The notes beneath the pieces were generated by a model. It saw nothing but the letters and a program-made list of their open reading frames with translations. It had not been told where the DNA came from and searched no databases. From a virus, in IMG/VR virus record IMGVR_UViG_3300034190_002622, positions 1-31,503 of that record: a stretch of DNA of 31,503 nucleotides. One strand, given 5' to 3'. Of this stretch, positions 1 to 19,032 are shown piece by piece (the first letter of the stretch is position 1; each line of letters starts with the position of its first letter). Made by a program: the position numbers and the translations under genes.

Positions 1-394
1 CGTCTTCTATATCGTCATGCTCTAATAAAGCACGTTTATCTTGTAACACTTCTATCTCAATACGACTAATCTGTTCTGGTCCTGTATTCTCTATCTCTAC
101 TTTATCAGACCATTTTAATATATTCTTAGCCATGAGGGTTAATACCCCTGCATTACCTTTCTTCTCACCTGTAGCATTATCCACCATAAGGTCTTGAAAA
201 GCAACCATGAAATCTCTTTCTCCTATCTCCGCAGCTTCTTTAAAGTCTGGGTGTTGATCTAACCAACCATAATAAGCGTTACGTGTAACGCCCCAAGCTT
301 GGCAGCATTTATCAATAGACATTCTACAGTCTTGACGCATACCTTCTCTAAGCTGTTTAGCGTATTTCTTTTTGTAAGTACTCTTACGTCCCAT
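1..394 (-). CDS. Terminase small subunit, partial (C-terminus off the left edge)
   Basis: Reading leftward from an ATG at 394-392, an open frame runs off the window edge (about 131 codons visible). The N-terminus is basic (MGRKSTYKKKYAKQLREGMR) and is followed by a helix-turn-helix of the kind used by phage small terminases (CCQAWGVTRNAYYGWLDQHP, roughly residues 29-48). A helical region follows with the element KWSDKVEIE, typical of the end of the DNA-binding half of this family. The small terminase recognises the packaging site and loads the large terminase. The ATG overlaps the stop of the upstream gene by one base (TAATG), implying translational coupling. The large terminase would be expected next, outside the window. 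The family assignment rests on the HTH, size and holin neighbour. Confidence 0.75.
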   Translation of the reverse strand, partial: MGRKSTYKKKYAKQLREGMRQDCRMSIDKCCQAWGVTRNAYYGWLDQHPDFKEAAEIGERDFMVAFQDLMVDNATGEKKGNAGVLTLMAKNILKWSDKVEIENTGPEQISRIEIEVLQDKRALLEHDDIED

Positions 395-654
395 TAGTCT
401 CTCACTTTGTCTAAGATTTTATCTATCTTCTCGTCCATCTTGTCTTGTTTTTTATCTAAGCTTTTTAGATCTTCTTTAATATCATTTAACCTGGAGTATT
501 GTACAGCATCAGATTTATCTAATTCTATAATCTTATCTTCCATTTTATCAATCCTGCTATGTAGGCGTTTACCTATCCACGCGAAAAGACCCACTACGGG
601 GCCTATAACTATAAAGAATATTTCTTTTAAAACATGTATTAAATCACTTTCCAT
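394..654 (-). CDS. Small membrane protein with coiled coil (holin-associated)
   Basis: The protein has 86 residues. An N-terminal amphipathic stretch leads into one hydrophobic segment (FFIVIGPVVGLFAWIG, about residues 13-28). The rest is highly charged coiled coil (KMEDKIIELDKSDAVQYSRLNDI and KKQDKMDEKIDKILDKV). The start at 654 is preferred over an ATG at 720 because the longer version would add a very basic tail deep inside the upstream gene; from 654 the overlap is only 11 bp. One TM plus a coiled coil next to a holin is the layout of an inner-membrane spanin or of haemolysin XhlA-like accessory proteins. No diagnostic motif distinguishes these, so the lysis role is inferred from position. 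Confidence 0.65.
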   Translation of the reverse strand: MESDLIHVLKEIFFIVIGPVVGLFAWIGKRLHSRIDKMEDKIIELDKSDAVQYSRLNDIKEDLKSLDKKQDKMDEKIDKILDKVRD

Positions 655-1117
655 TCTCGGCCTTCTCAAGTGCCTTGGTGAATACTGCGACCTGCTGCTG
701 CGTAAGCGCACCATAATCATCCCTCAAGCTATCAAAATACTTCTTTCGGTTAATGCGTTCAGCAATCTTTTCTCCACTTCTGCCAACGATATAACCACCA
801 ATACCTATTTCAAGTAATGTAAATAGATTAGATACGATAGATGGATTGTCTATCAAATATTGAGGAGCTAACCCAAACCAATAAGACCCTAGCAATACTA
901 GGAAGAACATCATTGTGGTTGGACGCCAGTTTCTTTGTAACCAAGATTCACCCGTAGCTTCTGCAATAACAACCTGTGCTTTAGCCTCAACTTCCTTAGC
1001 TTGGGCTTGTACAAGGATGTTCATCATCTCTGATTTGGCTTCATCTGATTTTTCTTTGTCTGGAATAAGGCGCTCTATCAGTGTAGTGATAGGGCCTATT
1101 AAGAGGTTTAATAGCAT
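644..1117 (-). CDS. Holin of the 3TM / GTA-holin family
   Basis: The protein has 157 residues. The N-terminus (MLLNLLIGPITTLIERLIPD), a charged helical linker (KEVEAKAQVVIAEATGES), the signature GESWLQRNWRPTTM, and two hydrophobic segments (MFFLVLLGSYWFGLAPQYL and LFTLLEIGIGGYIVG) match the phage/GTA 'holin of 3TMs' family. Such proteins sit in the cytoplasmic membrane and are thought to let endolysin reach the cell wall. It is the first gene of the leftward late unit, about 350 nt below the nearer strong promoter. No Shine-Dalgarno sequence precedes the ATG; the upstream bases are an A/T run (AATAAGAATAACAATA). Translation may therefore depend on the leader, or start inefficiently. The endolysin candidate lies far away, at 10793-11581. 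Confidence 0.75.
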   Translation of the reverse strand: MLLNLLIGPITTLIERLIPDKEKSDEAKSEMMNILVQAQAKEVEAKAQVVIAEATGESWLQRNWRPTTMMFFLVLLGSYWFGLAPQYLIDNPSIVSNLFTLLEIGIGGYIVGRSGEKIAERINRKKYFDSLRDDYGALTQQQVAVFTKALEKAENGK

Positions 1118-1140
1118 TATTGTTATTCTTATTTTATTAA

Positions 1141-1440
1141 ATTAGGAGGCACTTTATAGAGATGCCAAGCTCTCTACTTCGGGAGAAGTAAATTTCCTTG
1201 TCGGGCATGGGACGCTTATTATATAAGGTCTCCCACGTTCCTTGCACGAATGCCGTAACGGCACACACTACGAGAAAAAGGCGAGGCTAGGAAATATGTC
1301 GTAAAACCTAACCTCAAAATGGTCGGATATGGAGTCGGTTAAGAGGTTCGCATACCCTTATTCAATAGAGTGGTTTTTTATATATCTTATGTGAGAGGGT
1401 AAGACATAAAGGAAAACCATAACCTTAGGAGAGAGTGTTT
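1141..1440 (-). ncRNA. Structured 5' leader RNA of the late unit
   Basis: Read leftward, the transcript from the nearer promoter passes through a series of hairpins before the holin ATG. In plus coordinates: 1372-1377/1413-1418 enclosing 1387-1392/1404-1409; 1325-1331/1351-1357; 1283-1291/1307-1315; 1251-1255/1259-1263; 1209-1212/1231-1234 enclosing 1215-1219/1223-1227; and 1162-1166/1204-1208 enclosing 1175-1180/1185-1190. Two stems (1325-1331 and 1283-1291) contain one G-U pair each when read as minus-strand RNA, but a mismatch when read as plus-strand RNA, so the structure belongs to the leftward transcript. The stems are seen directly; a regulatory role is inferred. It resembles no RNA family I can name. 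Confidence 0.55.
1275..1315 (-). terminator. Terminator-like hairpin in the late leader, possible attenuator
   Basis: On the minus strand a 9-bp stem with one G-U pair (GAGGTTAGG / CCTAGCCTC) closes a 15-nt loop. GCC and then five T residues (1279-1275) follow. This has the form of an intrinsic terminator, although the U-run is short and offset. The 5' arm GAGGTT (1315-1310) is also complementary to AACCTC (1348-1343) in the loop of the upstream hairpin, so an alternative pairing could prevent the terminator from forming. Confidence 0.45.
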
Positions 1441-1480
1441 ATGTTATTCTTATTATACACTTCTTTTTATTATGGTAACT

Positions 1481-1509
1481 ATTATACCATAGGTTTGTTG
1501 ATTTGTCAA
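1481..1509 (-). promoter_or_regulatory. Strong leftward sigma70 promoter (P2), perfect consensus
   Basis: The minus strand reads TTGACA (1509-1504), a 17-nt spacer, and TATAAT (1486-1481), with a TG one base upstream of the -10 (extended -10). Predicted start is near 1474. It transcribes the structured leader and then the holin and terminase genes. Confidence 0.85.
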
Positions 1510-1563
1510 GCTTTTTCTTTATCTTGTGTATTCCTTATCTTTGTGTTATACTTTAATCATAGG

Positions 1564-1648
1564 GTGCATATAGTTCATTGCATTCACCAAGTAACACATT
1601 CATTCACAAACTCACAAAGCTAAAGCCGCTTTGTTCGCTTGTTCATTA
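1564..1648 (-). promoter_or_regulatory. Duplicated structured leader element, copy A
   Basis: The minus-strand RNA begins TAATGAACAA about 12 nt after the expected start of promoter P1. It continues with a 7-bp hairpin (1634-1628/1620-1614, loop GGCTTTA), then TTTGTGAATGAATG (1610-1597), a CTTGG-TGAA core, and ends GAACTATATGCAC (1576-1564). The same order of blocks appears in copy B at 11998-12086 on the opposite strand. In this copy no gene follows directly; P2 lies about 55 nt downstream. Confidence 0.7.
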
Positions 1649-1666
1649 AGTAAACCCTGTAAAACT

Positions 1667-1695
1667 ATTATAACAAACAATCTTGATCTTGTCAA
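1667..1695 (-). promoter_or_regulatory. Strong leftward sigma70 promoter (P1), perfect consensus
   Basis: The minus strand reads TTGACA (1695-1690), a 17-nt spacer, and TATAAT (1672-1667). Predicted start is near 1660. Its transcript carries structured element copy A and then reads through P2 into the late leader. The surroundings of P1 and P2 are alike (CTTGACAA and TATAATAGTT in both), suggesting that they arose by duplication. Confidence 0.85.
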
Positions 1696-1796
1696 GTTTT
1701 TATTTTAATTAAATTGTAAAGAAACTGTAAAGAAAACACAACACTGACAAAGAATCAATAGCTTGTGATTTATTTAAAATTATTTAATTATTTCTC

Positions 1797-1825
1797 TTGA
1801 CATACTAGATCTTGTGTTCTATAGT
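1797..1825 (+). promoter_or_regulatory. Rightward sigma70 promoter for the 1855-7713 unit
   Basis: TTGACA (1797-1802), a 17-nt spacer and TATAGT (1820-1825). The predicted start near 1832 gives a short leader of about 23 nt containing AAGGAGA, 5 nt before the ATG at 1855. It lies back to back with the leftward promoters. Confidence 0.8.
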
Positions 1826-1854
1826 TAAGATATACACAAAACAAGGAGAAACAA

Positions 1855-1977
1855 ATGTCTGCACTAACTAACACTGAGAAACAATCTTTTAAAGACCTTG
1901 AACAAGAATCAAAAGCATTAATACAAAGAATGGAAGAACTACTGAAAGAAGCTTATGCACTTATAAAGGAGTTATAA
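1855..1977 (+). CDS. Small helical protein, function unknown
   Basis: The protein has 40 residues and is the first gene of its unit. A strong AAGGAGA ribosome-binding site sits 5 nt upstream of the ATG. The sequence (MSALTNTEKQSFKDLEQESK at the start, then a Glu/Leu/Lys-rich helix) looks like one continuous amphipathic helix or short coiled coil. Its position right behind a strong promoter suggests high expression. First genes of phage early units often encode host-modifying peptides, but nothing in the sequence points to a target. Confidence 0.6.
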   Translation: MSALTNTEKQSFKDLEQESKALIQRMEELLKEAYALIKEL

Positions 1978-1978
1978 T

Positions 1979-2113
1979 ATGTATCTACTGAACACTGAGA
2001 ATGGTAAGGTTCAAACTTATGAGGAATGGTGTTACGCTGTATATGATAATTTTATATCACAACAACAGTTTGACAATCTTTTAGAATGCAATGAGCTAGG
2101 GGAGGTGTTATGA
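1979..2113 (+). CDS. Small acidic protein, function unknown
   Basis: The protein has 44 residues, starts one base after the preceding stop, and ends in an ATGA overlap with the next gene. It contains aromatic and Gln-rich stretches (EEWCYAVYDNFISQQQFDNL). The preceding AAAGGAG, inside the end of the previous gene, serves as ribosome-binding site. I do not recognise the family. Confidence 0.55.
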   Translation: MYLLNTENGKVQTYEEWCYAVYDNFISQQQFDNLLECNELGEVL

Positions 2114-2361
2114 TTAATTTAAACGTAATACTTGAGGATGTACCCAATTATCTACTAACAGACTTAGCTTATGAGCTTAAAGACGTACAGGAAGCCTACC
2201 ACGTTGTCGCTGACGCAACGATCAGAGCTGACATAGGGCGTATATGCTTAGACTTAGAGAACGACGCTCAGAGCATCGCTGTGGCCCTTATGAACAGTTT
2301 GGATATGTTAGAGGATATGGGGTTGAGTCCTTTCGTAATAGAGATAGGAGTGTTGAAGTAA
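2110..2361 (+). CDS. Hypothetical protein, helical and acidic
   Basis: The protein has 83 residues. It overlaps the upstream gene by ATGA and the downstream gene by TAATG. A GGGGAGG ribosome-binding site lies 3-4 nt before the ATG. The product is predominantly helical and acidic (DVPNYLLTDLAYELKDVQEA near the N-terminus), without cysteines that would suggest metal binding and without membrane segments. I do not recognise it. The tight coupling on both sides supports its being real. Confidence 0.6.
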   Translation: MINLNVILEDVPNYLLTDLAYELKDVQEAYHVVADATIRADIGRICLDLENDAQSIAVALMNSLDMLEDMGLSPFVIEIGVLK

Positions 2362-3213: not shown

Positions 3214-4209
3214 ATGATCCACAATAAGACGAACAATGAGTTGTTGAAAGAGTTTGATAAACACGTAATTGGCCATACAGCTGCTAAGAAGATGCTTATC
3301 TCTTTAGTTAATAGGTCTAAGACTGCGCATTACCATAAATACTTATCACCAACCCCCTCAGATGATATTGAAACTAGTAATTGTCTGTTAATTGGTGGGT
3401 CTGGTACAGGTAAAACACATTTAGTAAATACATTACAGAAGTTAGTTAAATTCCCTTTAATTAGAGTAGATGCAACACAACTAGGGCCATCTGGTAGTGT
3501 CGCCCCTATGAACGTAGATAAGCTTTTAAAAGAGATTGTGAATAATGCATCTGATTTAGTGTATGACAGTGTTGATGATGGTTGTTTTCATTCACTAGAG
3601 GGCACTGTTGACCAAACTATTGTATTTATTGATGAAGTTGATAAATTATCTGATGCGTATAGTCAGAAAGATAGTAATTGGAATAAACAAACACAATCTA
3701 CCTTACTAACTCTATTAGAAAACAATGAAGAGTTTAAGAATGTGTCATTTATCTTAGCAGGTGCTTTTGTAGGATTACAGAATAAGACAGAGGCTAAGAG
3801 CGGTATAGGGTTTAATAAAGTAGATATTGAAGAAGAGATTAACGAGGTTACTGATAAAGACGTTATTAGTTTCGGTATGATGCCTGAATTAATTGGTAGA
3901 TTAAGTAGTGTTAAAGTGTTAGATGTGTTAGAATACAAAGAAATGAAGATGATATTAGAAGATATTATTATTCCACAAGCCACAGCACAATTATCTAGGT
4001 TTGCGTATGTACCAAGGAATTATATATCTACATCACAAATCCATGAGATGATAGAGCGAGCTTTGGAGAGTGGGCAAGGTGCTAGATCCTTAAAGAGAGA
4101 GGTTAATAAGTTGTTCGCTGATTTAGAGTTTGACTTTGAAGTTGTAGGAGAGATTAAGAATTTACCATTAGTAATAAATAACAAAGGAGTAGATAATGGC
4201 GCAACCTAG
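3214..4209 (+). CDS. ClpX/HslU-type AAA+ ATPase (core only)
   Basis: The protein has 331 residues. HVIGHTAAKKMLISL (about 17-31) matches the ClpX box before Walker A. Walker A is GGSGTGKT (61-68) and Walker B IVFIDEVDK (136-144). The stretch FGMMPELIGRLSSV (220-233) corresponds to the ClpX 'GxxPEFIGRLPV' element with its Arg finger, and GARSLKREV (289-297) is sensor 2. The cysteine-containing N-terminal zinc domain of ClpX is absent, and I see no clear IGF-type loop for docking ClpP. ATP-driven unfolding or remodelling is therefore likely, but a protease partner is not evident. The start follows AGGAGA. The end overlaps nrdB by 14 bp, so the two are translationally coupled. Confidence 0.85.
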   Translation: MIHNKTNNELLKEFDKHVIGHTAAKKMLISLVNRSKTAHYHKYLSPTPSDDIETSNCLLIGGSGTGKTHLVNTLQKLVKFPLIRVDATQLGPSGSVAPMNVDKLLKEIVNNASDLVYDSVDDGCFHSLEGTVDQTIVFIDEVDKLSDAYSQKDSNWNKQTQSTLLTLLENNEEFKNVSFILAGAFVGLQNKTEAKSGIGFNKVDIEEEINEVTDKDVISFGMMPELIGRLSSVKVLDVLEYKEMKMILEDIIIPQATAQLSRFAYVPRNYISTSQIHEMIERALESGQGARSLKREVNKLFADLEFDFEVVGEIKNLPLVINNKGVDNGAT

Positions 4210-8159: not shown

Positions 8160-8408
8160 TTATGCAGTCACTATCCAAATGTTGTTTTCTCTGAATTTCT
8201 TAACCACTTTGAGTATTGTTGTGTGGTCTTTGTTACAATATGTACCAATTTCATGCCAAGAATACCCACAATCAAACCTTAAGTAGCAGTATAATTGCTT
8301 CTTCTTGTCCATTATTGTCTTAGTTCCACGTGATAATAACACGTCTGATATGTCTAGATTAAGCATTGTTAATGCGTGTTGTGCATCACTCTCTATTGTT
8401 CTGTTCAT
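8160..8408 (-). CDS. Stand-alone DnaA domain IV-like DNA-binding protein
   Basis: The protein has 82 residues. From about residue 25 it follows the C-terminal domain of the initiator DnaA: LLSRGTK (basic loop), KKQLYCYLRFDCGYSWHEIG (first helices), then NKDHTTILKVVKKF (59-72), equal to the DnaA signature 'GRDHTTVLHACRKI' that reads DnaA boxes. The AAA+ ATPase domain and helicase-loading domains are absent. It should bind DnaA-box-like DNA without initiating by itself. It may recruit or block host DnaA, or act at the phage origin. It is the last gene of the leftward unit, overlapping the upstream gene by 4 bp, and borders the hairpin-rich region. Confidence 0.75.
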   Translation of the reverse strand: MNRTIESDAQHALTMLNLDISDVLLSRGTKTIMDKKKQLYCYLRFDCGYSWHEIGTYCNKDHTTILKVVKKFRENNIWIVTA

Positions 8409-11978: not shown

Positions 11979-11997
11979 TAAAACATAGAGACATACA

Positions 11998-12086
11998 TAA
12001 TGAACAACAATCAATGCGACTATAGCATTGTTATTTTTGTGAATGAATGGATAAATCTTGGGTGAAGCGAAGCGAACTATATGCAC
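11998..12086 (+). promoter_or_regulatory. Duplicated structured leader element, copy B
   Basis: It begins TAATGAACAA 19 nt after the -10 of its promoter. It continues with a hairpin (12012-12017/12025-12030, CAATGC-GACTATA-GCATTG), TTTGTGAATGAATG (12036-12049), a CTTGGGTGAA core, and GAACTATATGCAC (12074-12086). AAGGAGAGG and the ATG at 12106 follow. Compared with copy A the hairpin keeps its shape but has one pair swapped (A-T to T-A), evidence that the RNA structure matters. GGTG and CACT can form a second short stem, matching GGTG/CACC in copy A. Confidence 0.7.
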
Positions 12087-12105: not shown

Positions 12106-12873
12106 ATGTCGCACTATGATGAAGAATACGAGAAAGCAATACAAGAAGCTAGTGTTAATATTAGGAATGAACACAAAGATGGGAGCATACATATTAATAC
12201 TGTTGAAGAAGCTGATGACTATATAAACTCACTAAAGAGTGCTCATATAGTAGGTCACATCACTGAAAAAGATTTGTTAGACAGTATAGATGAATACAAA
12301 GCACACGCTGATTTAATAACCGACCCTTGGAATCCTATGTATAACGCTCCTGAACCTAACATAGTAGACTCTCTTAATCCTTGGTATAATAGATTAGAAG
12401 AGATGGAATCAACCCCTTTGAAAGAAACCAAAGGTAAAGCTCATGATGCTAGATACTGTTACTTGTATGATATAGCTAAAGTGGTTTTTGACCATGAAAA
12501 TTCAGATATAAGTCAGAAATATATTGACATTGGTGAAATGTTAGCTATAATAGTAGAGAGTGTTGAAGATAATAATGTAGCTAACGCAGAGTATTATTGT
12601 TCTGAGATACTGAACAATTTAATCAATGAACGTACATTACATGAGTTAGTAGGAGTTAGAGCACACGCATTAAGCTCTGGTAAGTATACATTAGATGGGT
12701 ATAGAGGTGAGATAGATGTTAAGTTGTTATTAGATGCAGCTGCTAGACACTTCTTAAAGATATTATTTGTTGATAAAACAGATGAAGAGAGTGGGTTTAG
12801 TCATGATGCACATATAGCAGCTAATGTTATAATGGTACATACACAATTGAGGTTACACCATGAGAGAGATTAA
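12106..12873 (+). CDS. dATP/dGTP pyrophosphohydrolase-like domain protein
   Basis: The protein has 255 residues from the ATG at 12106 after AAGGAGAGG. A TTG at 12058 in the same frame would place the start inside the structured leader and is rejected. The N-terminal half is acidic and unrecognised. The C-terminal segment LLLDAAARHFLKILFVDKTD followed by EESGFSHDAHIAANVIMV matches the metal-binding core of the phage dATP/dGTP diphosphohydrolase-type family (DUF5664: 'LLxAAxRHxxxxxxGEDxDxESGxxHLAHAxxNL'). Such enzymes hydrolyse purine dNTPs to dNMP and PPi. This is a partial match in a longer protein, so the activity is a prediction. No PurZ-like gene accompanies it. Confidence 0.5.
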   Translation: MSHYDEEYEKAIQEASVNIRNEHKDGSIHINTVEEADDYINSLKSAHIVGHITEKDLLDSIDEYKAHADLITDPWNPMYNAPEPNIVDSLNPWYNRLEEMESTPLKETKGKAHDARYCYLYDIAKVVFDHENSDISQKYIDIGEMLAIIVESVEDNNVANAEYYCSEILNNLINERTLHELVGVRAHALSSGKYTLDGYRGEIDVKLLLDAAARHFLKILFVDKTDEESGFSHDAHIAANVIMVHTQLRLHHERD

Positions 12874-16876: not shown

Positions 16877-19032
16877 ATGTTGTAGTGTTAGATTTTGAAA
16901 CTAGCACGGGTGATAAAGCTACCCATGGGCCTAGTGCTAAAGACCCCGCCAATGACTTCTATACGATTATTTACGGTGATAGCCCTGATAATGTCACTAT
17001 AGAACATAAAGAGGAGGGGTTTAAACGTAAGCTTCCTAATGGGTTTGTAGAGATGTTAGCTAAGTCTGATGTTTTAATAGGACACAACTTAGCATTTGAT
17101 TTAAGTTATATATGGCATACACAAGAGCTTAAAGACTTCATCTTAAAAGGTGGTGAGATATACGATACACAGACAGCAGAGTACCTTATGTCGGGACAAA
17201 GACATAGTTTTGCTAGCTTAGGTGAGTTACAGAATATATATCTAGGTACTAAAGTTAAGATAGATCGTATTAGTAAGTTATATAGAAAGGGTGTAGGTGC
17301 AGATAGAATGGTGGGAGCACAGCATAAATGTAAAAGATTCTTTGCTATGTATGAGCAATATTCTTATGATGACGGCATCACTACATTACAAATATACGAA
17401 AAACAACAAATAAAACTTGACAATCTAGGAATGCGGTCTATAATAAAGATGTATAACAGATATTTACTATCTCTTATCAACTGCATGAACACAGGAATCT
17501 TGATTGATACTGATAAATGTCAGAAGACTTTGAGAGAGTTTAAAATAAAAGAATTGGAATTAATGGAACAAGCAGGGGAGTTGATTAAGGAGTATTGGAG
17601 AGATGATAGGTTGCCTGATTTTAATGTTAATAGTCCTACTCATAAGAGTGCTATACTCTTCGGTGGTGAAATCAAAGTTAAAGTGCGTCGTGAGAATGGA
17701 TTGTACAAAAACGGAAAGCAAAAGTTCAAGCTTTTTGACGAGGTGGTTTACATAGAAGGCTTTAGATTGCCTTTAAGTTTAACTAGCGAATCAAAAGTAA
17801 ACGGAAGATATAAAACTGGTACTGATATTATAGAGAAGATATACAAGAAGAGTACTAACGAAGAAGCTAAAGAGTATTGTAGGTTACAGAAAGAAGCTAT
17901 GAATTTAGGTAAGATGTCTTCTACTTATTTAGAAGCATTCTTAAACTTAAATATTGATAAAAGGCTTTACCCTAACTTTAATACAACAGCTACAGCAACA
18001 TCGAGGTTAAGTAGTAGTAACCCAAACTTGCAGAACGTACCATCTAAGTCAGATATGGCTAAGAAGATACAAGGGCTATTCATAGCTCCTAAAGGTTGGA
18101 AGTGTGTTCAGATAGATTTCAGTCAGTTAGAGATTTATGTATTAGCCTGGTTATCAGGTGATAGCAAGATGACTAAAGACTTATTAGATGGTGTTGACTT
18201 CCATTGCTTAAGAATGTCTTGGTGTACTAGTATGGCACAAGGTAAGAGTTATGAAGAGATTGTTGCATTAGCTAAAAAATGGAAAATAAAAGAGTGGGTA
18301 TTAAAAAGGAATCAAGCTAAACAGATTTCTTACCAAAAAGCATATGGTGCCGGAGCTAGAAGTTTAGCTGAGAGTACGGGACTTCTTGAAGATGATGTAA
18401 AAGAACTCATGGACAAAGAAGATAAGATATATTATAAAGTAAAAGGATATAATGCTCATGTTTTATCTACAGTGGAAAATAACACGGAACATAGTACCAA
18501 AATGGGTATCCCGTCTTACCTGCTTCGAGGAGGAGTTAACGGCAAGAGATTTGATCAGAGCGGATACGAGCTGCTTCCTATCAAATCGGGAGATACTAAT
18601 ACGTATGAGAACGGACTTAGAAGAGAGATTGGGTATTACCAAAGCCCTACAAGAAAACGATACGCCTTCGAACAATTTGGGTCATTCGATAGACGAGGAA
18701 ATTTAAGACAGAACTTTAGTCCAACACAAACTAAGAACTATCAGATTCAGGGTACAGCTAGTGATGTACAAGCAGCTACAAGCGCAGCGTTGTTACATGT
18801 ACTATTACAACATTCTGATAAGATACAGATGGTAAATGAGATTCACGATAGTAAATGGTTTTATGTGAAAGAAGAGTATTTAAATAAGATTGTGCCACAA
18901 GTTTGTAATTTAATGGAATCTGTGCCACACTTGTTTAAGAAGTATTTGGGAGTAGATGTCCCATTTAAATTCCCTGTTGATGCTGAGATTGGGGATAATT
19001 TTGCGGAACTAACCGCTTTTAAAGGAGAGTAG
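16870..19032 (+). CDS. Family A DNA polymerase with 3'-5' exonuclease
   Basis: The protein has 720 residues. The exonuclease domain has LDFETS (DxE, near residue 8), GHNLAFDLSYI (Asp of motif II) and YSYDDGITTLQIY (Y-x3-D motif III). The polymerase domain has motif A DFSQLE (D416), motif B RNQAKQISYQKAYG (R480, K484, Y488, Y492) and motif C NEIHDSKWF (H659, D660, S661). Y488 sits at the E. coli Phe762 position and is Tyr, as in T7. Motif C reads HDS where nearly all relatives have HDE. It lacks the 5' nuclease domain, which is separate at 20066. As the only polymerase here, it is likely the replicative enzyme. Confidence 0.95.
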   Translation: MVNVVVLDFETSTGDKATHGPSAKDPANDFYTIIYGDSPDNVTIEHKEEGFKRKLPNGFVEMLAKSDVLIGHNLAFDLSYIWHTQELKDFILKGGEIYDTQTAEYLMSGQRHSFASLGELQNIYLGTKVKIDRISKLYRKGVGADRMVGAQHKCKRFFAMYEQYSYDDGITTLQIYEKQQIKLDNLGMRSIIKMYNRYLLSLINCMNTGILIDTDKCQKTLREFKIKELELMEQAGELIKEYWRDDRLPDFNVNSPTHKSAILFGGEIKVKVRRENGLYKNGKQKFKLFDEVVYIEGFRLPLSLTSESKVNGRYKTGTDIIEKIYKKSTNEEAKEYCRLQKEAMNLGKMSSTYLEAFLNLNIDKRLYPNFNTTATATSRLSSSNPNLQNVPSKSDMAKKIQGLFIAPKGWKCVQIDFSQLEIYVLAWLSGDSKMTKDLLDGVDFHCLRMSWCTSMAQGKSYEEIVALAKKWKIKEWVLKRNQAKQISYQKAYGAGARSLAESTGLLEDDVKELMDKEDKIYYKVKGYNAHVLSTVENNTEHSTKMGIPSYLLRGGVNGKRFDQSGYELLPIKSGDTNTYENGLRREIGYYQSPTRKRYAFEQFGSFDRRGNLRQNFSPTQTKNYQIQGTASDVQAATSAALLHVLLQHSDKIQMVNEIHDSKWFYVKEEYLNKIVPQVCNLMESVPHLFKKYLGVDVPFKFPVDAEIGDNFAELTAFKGE

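Follow-up and report, generated by a model that had tools for sequence, protein, structure and literature searches.

Comparison of a late promoter region in one tailed phage with the same locus in two relatives reveals a conserved, structured leader, the late strand of which bears two arms complementary to a single site in 23S rRNA. The site, at ~1930-1975, lies in what we take to be helices H70-H71 of domain IV. With E. coli 23S rRNA as the stand-in, this complementarity is beyond chance and specific to the one site, and it is not anticipated by the preliminary description of this DNA, which had been made from the letters alone. The leader lies between a perfect sigma70-type promoter, P1, and the holin gene (Table 1). 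The window here denotes the whole stretch of DNA that was analyzed, 31,503 nucleotides of IMG/VR record IMGVR_UViG_3300034190_002622, a virus record classed as linear. It belongs to a tailed phage, in which genes for a major tail protein and a tape measure are present. The relatives are two IMG/VR contigs with the same locus, L003 and L007. Numbering of 23S rRNA follows the 2,899-nt E. coli gene, which stands in for that of the phage host.

Table 1. Promoters, leader elements and late genes of the window and of the two related contigs
Feature	Contig	Position	Strand	Description
P1	window	1481-1509	(-)	TTGACA-17-TATAAT; extended -10 (TGG ahead of -10); predicted start ~1474-1475
P2	window	1667-1695	(-)	TTGACA-17-TATAAT
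Divergent promoter-like site	window	1797-1825	(+)	TTGACA-17-TATAGT; ahead of rightward gene block
P2 leader element	window	1564-1652	(-)	77% copy at 11994-12086 (+)
Structured leader	window	1118-1475	(-)	between P1 and holin start
Hairpin P0	window	1434-1461	(-)	short, weak 5' hairpin, AGUGU/ACACU; other stem in L007
Hairpin D	window	1372-1418	(-)	21 bp in L007, 15 bp in the other two phages
Possible degenerate second antisense block	window	1268-1306	(-)	23S ~1640-1685; clear only in L007
5' antisense arm	window	1237-1258	(-)	UUACGGCAUUCGUGCAAGGAAC; complementary, gapped, to 23S ~1949-1973
Variable hairpin H	window	1206-1236	(-)	between the antisense arms
3' antisense arm	window	1191-1205	(-)	core CCCGACAAGGAA; complementary to 23S ~1931-1945
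3' hairpin C	window	1142-1168	(-)	contains invariant run UAAAGUGCC
Holin	window	644-1117	(-)	PHROG 3427, E 3.5e-28; Pfam GTA_holin_3TM above cut-off; first gene after leader
Small gene	window	394-720	(-)	weak XhlA/spanin-like similarity
Terminase small subunit	window	2-394	(-)	PHROG 309, E 9.2e-9; cut by contig end
P1	L003	531-559		perfect
P2	L003			TTGACA-17-TAAACT; 10/12 match
Terminase-portal junction promoter	L003	3427-3455		perfect TTGACA-17-TATAAT, TG before -10; ahead of portal gene
P1	L007	3421-3449		perfect
P2	L007	3130-3158		perfect
Terminase-portal junction promoter	L007	6298-6326		perfect TTGACA-17-TATAAT, TG before -10; overlaps terminase end

The two leftward promoters were found exactly where the preliminary description had placed them, with P2 186 bp upstream of P1 and a TG ahead of the -10 element in both. 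Its further claims, that the two share flanks and that perfect matches are rare, are borne out as well. The common flanks extend over 19 nt (84% identity) beside the -35 element and 13 nt (92% identity) beside the -10 element. The window holds four perfect TTGACA/TATAAT matches (spacer 15-19) against a mean of 0.13 in dinucleotide shuffles, and none of 100 shuffles reached four; the remaining two matches, at 12524-12551 (+) and 17417-17444 (+), have a spacer of 16 and lie within long open frames. P1 and P2 thus combine TTGACA and TATAAT at a spacing within 16-18 bp beyond chance expectation, and judged by sequence they are genuine promoters of the host-sigma70 type, which probably operate without a dedicated activator. 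The window and the L007 contig, records that may be incomplete, yielded neither the Q antiterminator (PF06530, with a positive control that matched) nor a T7-type polymerase (by a search that matched no control genome). P1 and P2 resemble phage promoters of the T5 N25 and T7 A1 type, which likewise serve the host polymerase with consensus or near-consensus hexamers and spacing, but the promoters described here precede late genes and a structured leader.

The related contigs place this arrangement in context. The holin of L003 is 89% identical to that of the window, and the terminase large subunit of L007 is 71% identical to that of L003. P1 is perfect in both relatives, with TG preceding its -10 element in all three phages, and both relatives carry an additional perfect promoter at the terminase-portal junction, of which the window stops short. 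Tandem strong promoters are a common trait of these phages, since L003 and L007 keep the arrangement and add the junction promoter, and strong sigma70-type promoters look, from these sequences, normal for late genes of the clade. The preliminary description was accordingly right that strong promoters and a structured leader precede a late unit, but its view of them as an oddity requiring a special switch is not supported. In a phage clade, nothing more elaborate than perfect sigma70-type promoters can precede late genes. As to the intervals between the promoters, L003 has an 80-residue open frame without a Pfam match between P2 and P1 (280-522), which is absent from the window, and in L007 only a 12-codon frame was seen by eye in the matching interval.

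That the unit is late, as had been stated, follows from the genes downstream of the leader: the holin, the gene with XhlA/spanin-like similarity and the terminase small subunit. In L003 the terminase large subunit and the portal follow. Among cultured phages, the nearest matches of the L003 terminase large subunit, at best ~45% identical, are in enterobacterial phages that we take to be Guernseyvirinae-like siphoviruses; the window likewise has tailed-phage tail genes, whereas its ribonucleotide reductase (RNR) and DNA polymerase have their closest relatives in phages other than those nearest by terminase.

The leader structure is conserved in the three phages. Leader length differs by phage (~235-400 nt). 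As single sequences the late strands fold with z-scores of -3.38 in the window, -3.71 in L003 and -1.87 in L007 (0, 0 and 3 of 100 shuffles as good), against -0.93, -0.65 and -0.98 for the opposite strands, where 18, 19 and 26 of 100 shuffles did as well. The consensus fold of the late strands lies far beyond shuffled alignments (z -7.5 and -7.3 for two alignments; none of 100 shuffles of the columns did as well). The opposite strand gave z -6.4 and -6.9, again with none of 100 shuffles as good, at an energy slightly lower than that of the late strand, and the consensus fold does not decide the strand; we take the late strand as the product because of the promoter direction and the single-sequence folds. 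Taken by itself, the 119-131-nt core scarcely exceeded its shuffles, if at all, whichever strand was folded (z -1.93/-1.81, -0.22/-0.07 and -0.62/-0.47), and the individual hairpins were mixed, some being more stable on the opposite strand.

Compensatory base changes are present in hairpin D across the three phages and in hairpin H across two. The 15 pair columns of D include eight changed on both sides, three changed on one side and four invariant, while in H 4 of 11 pair columns are changed on both sides between the window and L007, L003 having a different hairpin there; the columns were matched by stem position in structures from late-strand folds. Counting G-U pairs as a strand test was dropped, as structures obtained from late-strand folds cannot hold A-C pairs. 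Reading the leader as a coding region was likewise rejected, no conserved frame having been noticed: a frame of L007 (3586-4335) crosses the leader into the holin, and the holin frame of the window begins at the holin itself.

The two antisense arms flank hairpin H. In the aligned core the invariant run of greatest length, the 11-nt CCCGACAAGGA of the 3' arm, is complementary to 23S rRNA, and CAUUC and UGCA of the 5' arm are likewise invariant. Opposite the C of GCACGAAUG stands an A in L003 and L007. The second longest invariant run, in hairpin C, is without a clear 23S match. The match to 1934-1973 is broken at the H71 loop by a hairpin that varies among the phages, and the flanking arms, with CCCGACAAGGA, stay complementary.

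Leaders with ends chosen after the similarity had been seen (for L003, 875, before the tRNA, in local alignment, and 800 in the energy calculations and the consensus fold) were aligned locally to the E. coli 23S gene, where the antisense score was reached by 2, 0 and 0 of 1000 shuffles for the window, L003 and L007, and the same-sense score by 882, 278 and 40. The alignment spans 23S 1925-1973 in the window and starts from 1935 in L003, being dense to ~1973. L007 aligns best to 1640-1695, in what is presumably the H61-H63 area, and blastn adds 1934-1947 and 1949-1973. This second block of L007 comprises 36 nt at 88.9%; for the window, 23S 1621-1700 ranks 4th of 141 segments in binding energy (-17.6). 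When the E. coli 23S gene alone was compared, the prominent domain IV pieces of all three phages had the late RNA antisense, and the weaker matches outside them run in both directions. In a distant blastn the L007 leader matched 23S in E. coli, with a match in 5375 of 5426 genomes and a typical E of 0.03 among the matches listed; the window leader gave no match at E 10 in blastn against E. coli genomes.

Binding energies, net of self-folding, point to the same site. They were calculated with isolated 80-nt rRNA pieces without proteins, and among 141 overlapping 23S segments either 1921-2000 or 1901-1980 ranks 1st for each late strand, at -30.1 (window), -26.5 (L003) and -39.6 (L007) kcal/mol against medians of -8.2, -6.9 and -8.4. 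None of 100 shuffled leaders was as good against 23S 1911-1990, for each of the three leaders. The results from the three phages are not independent, because the phages are related. The opposite strands have weaker best segments at other places (-20.9, -17.9 and -21.7), and the best of 37 segments of 16S rRNA reached -16.6, -11.1 and -20.6. Among 174 tiles covering both strands of the window, the leader tile alone stands out (-28.0, the next being -13.7). When 78 stretches preceding related holin genes were compared, the L007 (-34.9) and L003 (-22.4) contigs alone were set apart, with the next at -15.5. Pairing was stronger with the 23S rRNA of E. coli and Acinetobacter than with that of Staphylococcus, an alphaproteobacterium or Caldilineaceae, which hints that the host is a gammaproteobacterium. 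In each of the three phages the opposite strand of the leader has segments within 23S ~401-560 among its top eight (-15.5 to -21.7), which may be a matter of composition.

These observations suggest, tentatively, a mechanism in which the RNA from P1 pairs through its two conserved arms with domain IV of the host 23S rRNA. P1 would make a folded leader RNA (~235-400 nt) that continues into the holin-terminase message, and the arms beside the variable hairpin would pair antisense with H70-H71 and, in L007, also with the H61-H63 area. In mature ribosomes H71 is folded at the subunit face; the likely target would be domain IV in immature 50S particles, before it has closed, and pairing at that stage may hinder late 50S maturation or subunit joining. 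PMC11260487 describes pre-50S particles with undocked H68 in which H69 and H71 are flexible, H71 as linking this region with the peptidyl transferase centre (PTC) and helping the folding of the PTC, and flexible H68 as leaving the 50S unfit to join the 30S. In one core intermediate the domain IV helices H61-63 are without density, according to PMC9935924. Given these intermediates, the regions with which the leaders could pair belong to the portion of domain IV that may stand open during assembly. The features observed are the promoter sequences and their conservation, the conserved fold and the complementarity; from these we infer that P1 is transcribed, that the leader pairs in cells, at which step it acts and that the phage would gain from it. 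A late anti-ribosome RNA is not obviously useful to a phage. It is somewhat doubtful that a lytic phage would use an antisense RNA from a perfect promoter as an anti-ribosomal weapon, its arms clamping on 23S domain IV and stalling late 50S assembly; if this were true, phages would have a previously undescribed means of seizing the resources of translation.

Several other readings compete with pairing to domain IV. The match to 23S rRNA could be a relic of an ancestor that captured host 23S DNA in antisense and reshaped it into a leader whose function does not involve rRNA pairing. The 23S-like pieces are indeed partial and interrupted, their order in L007 is unlike that of rRNA, with the 1639-1695 piece beyond the 1934-1973 pieces, and three related phages are the only ones known to carry such a leader. 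Yet complementarity has persisted in the arms even though the intervening hairpin has been replaced and stem D rewritten, and L003 keeps, hairpin aside, a near-continuous antisense copy of 23S 1934-1973, which makes a relic rather unlikely.

A leader that acts in cis on the late message, as an antiterminator of the put or EAR kind, a processed 5' end or a means of recruiting ribosomes to the holin start, is in our estimate unlikely too. The position between P1 and the holin is kept in all three phages, no terminator-like site was seen inside the leader in the window, the holin start of the window lacks an obvious Shine-Dalgarno sequence (by eye), and the tRNA-Met that follows the leader in L003 suggests processing; but a role in cis leaves the match of the arms to 23S rRNA unexplained, and there is no match to an Rfam family. 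In the Rfam searches no family reached the gathering score in the window, and a relaxed search of the region, L003 and L007 put only the L003 tRNA above it. That tRNA-Met (CAU) occupies 876-950 of L003, between leader and holin gene.

The preliminary description had offered as its second option that a phage repressor shuts off P1 and P2 early, through operators overlapping the promoters. A perfect promoter would need a brake if its genes are truly late, and a regulator could be encoded at 8160-8408 (-) in the window: this small protein with weak DnaA-C/HTH_38 similarity, below Pfam cut-offs, shares 39% identity with a homologue encoded on the L007 contig and is by sequence a candidate. Inspection by eye of the three phages found no conserved operator at P1 or P2 beyond the promoter elements, and the expected overlapping operator has therefore no conserved candidate; an inverted repeat, ATGGTA/TACCAT, flanks the -10 element of P1 in the window and is missing, by eye, from L003 and L007. 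Early repression seems quite improbable. It is highly improbable that the opposite strand is the product, acting as a sense mimic of 23S rRNA that titrates an rRNA-binding protein or methylase: although the window carries 23S in the sense direction on its plus strand and the opposite-strand consensus fold is also far better than shuffles, single sequences of this strand fold no better than shuffles, no plus-strand promoter-like site lies left of the leader, the known promoters read the opposite way, and none of the three copies has an intact H71 stem GUCGG/CCGAC.

Known phage and guide RNAs provide partial parallels. The put RNA of HK022 and EAR are structured antiterminator RNAs that lie near the 5' end of a long transcript and act in cis on the polymerase; the leader described here is likewise structured and near a 5' end, but put and EAR are shorter and lack its antisense relation to rRNA. 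Archaea and eukaryotes have box C/D and H/ACA guide RNAs with arms that pair with rRNA, those of H/ACA RNAs on both sides of a hairpin base. The leader would likewise pair with rRNA through its arms, which are longer, and we know of no guide proteins in bacteria; the likeness is an analogy only. T4 RNA C/D and GOLLD are structured phage RNAs found near tRNAs, as the leader of L003 is followed by a tRNA, but the leader lacks an Rfam match; to our knowledge neither T4 RNA C/D nor GOLLD has complementarity to rRNA. The open-access full-text literature yielded no description of a phage RNA that is antisense to 23S rRNA, and no cultured phage carrying this leader was found. Phages are known to target host ribosomes with proteins (PMC10914614). 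If the leader does pair with domain IV, RNA-rRNA pairing would join the anti-ribosome repertoire of phages and domain IV maturation would be a weak point of assembly.

Further relatives were sought in collections from which records very near the window may be missing. DNA patterns and an alignment of the terminase small subunit gave only L003 and L007, and a search with the AAA protein gave no further relatives. The terminase large subunit led to 14 loci, one of which (L008) begins inside the gene; the other loci, apart from L003 and L007, were screened only by an insensitive blastn, the listing of which misses even the leaders of the window and L003 themselves and so is no evidence of absence. 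The 78 stretches upstream of related holins came from an alignment in which the best 80 of 379 relatives were kept, L071 and L087 being left out as nothing lies upstream of their match. Matches to 23S rRNA in the phage collection (26 records) look mainly like host contamination. A pattern for the 36-nt piece of L007 retrieved two Caldilineaceae MAGs and one alphaproteobacterial MAG, which names no host.

Two minor observations concern the neighborhood of the promoters. The leader element behind P2 is not notably folded (z -1.68 to 0.35 in six folds). It somewhat resembles the P2 leader of L003, with a small common hairpin the stem of which is altered. Its copy elsewhere in the window sits behind a TTGACA-16-TATACT site, so that one element is found with two different promoters. 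ATPase-like homologues of PHROG 4339, a family of unknown function, are encoded at 3214-4209 (+) in the window and at 1368-2348 (-) in L007, in both cases beside the divergent region.
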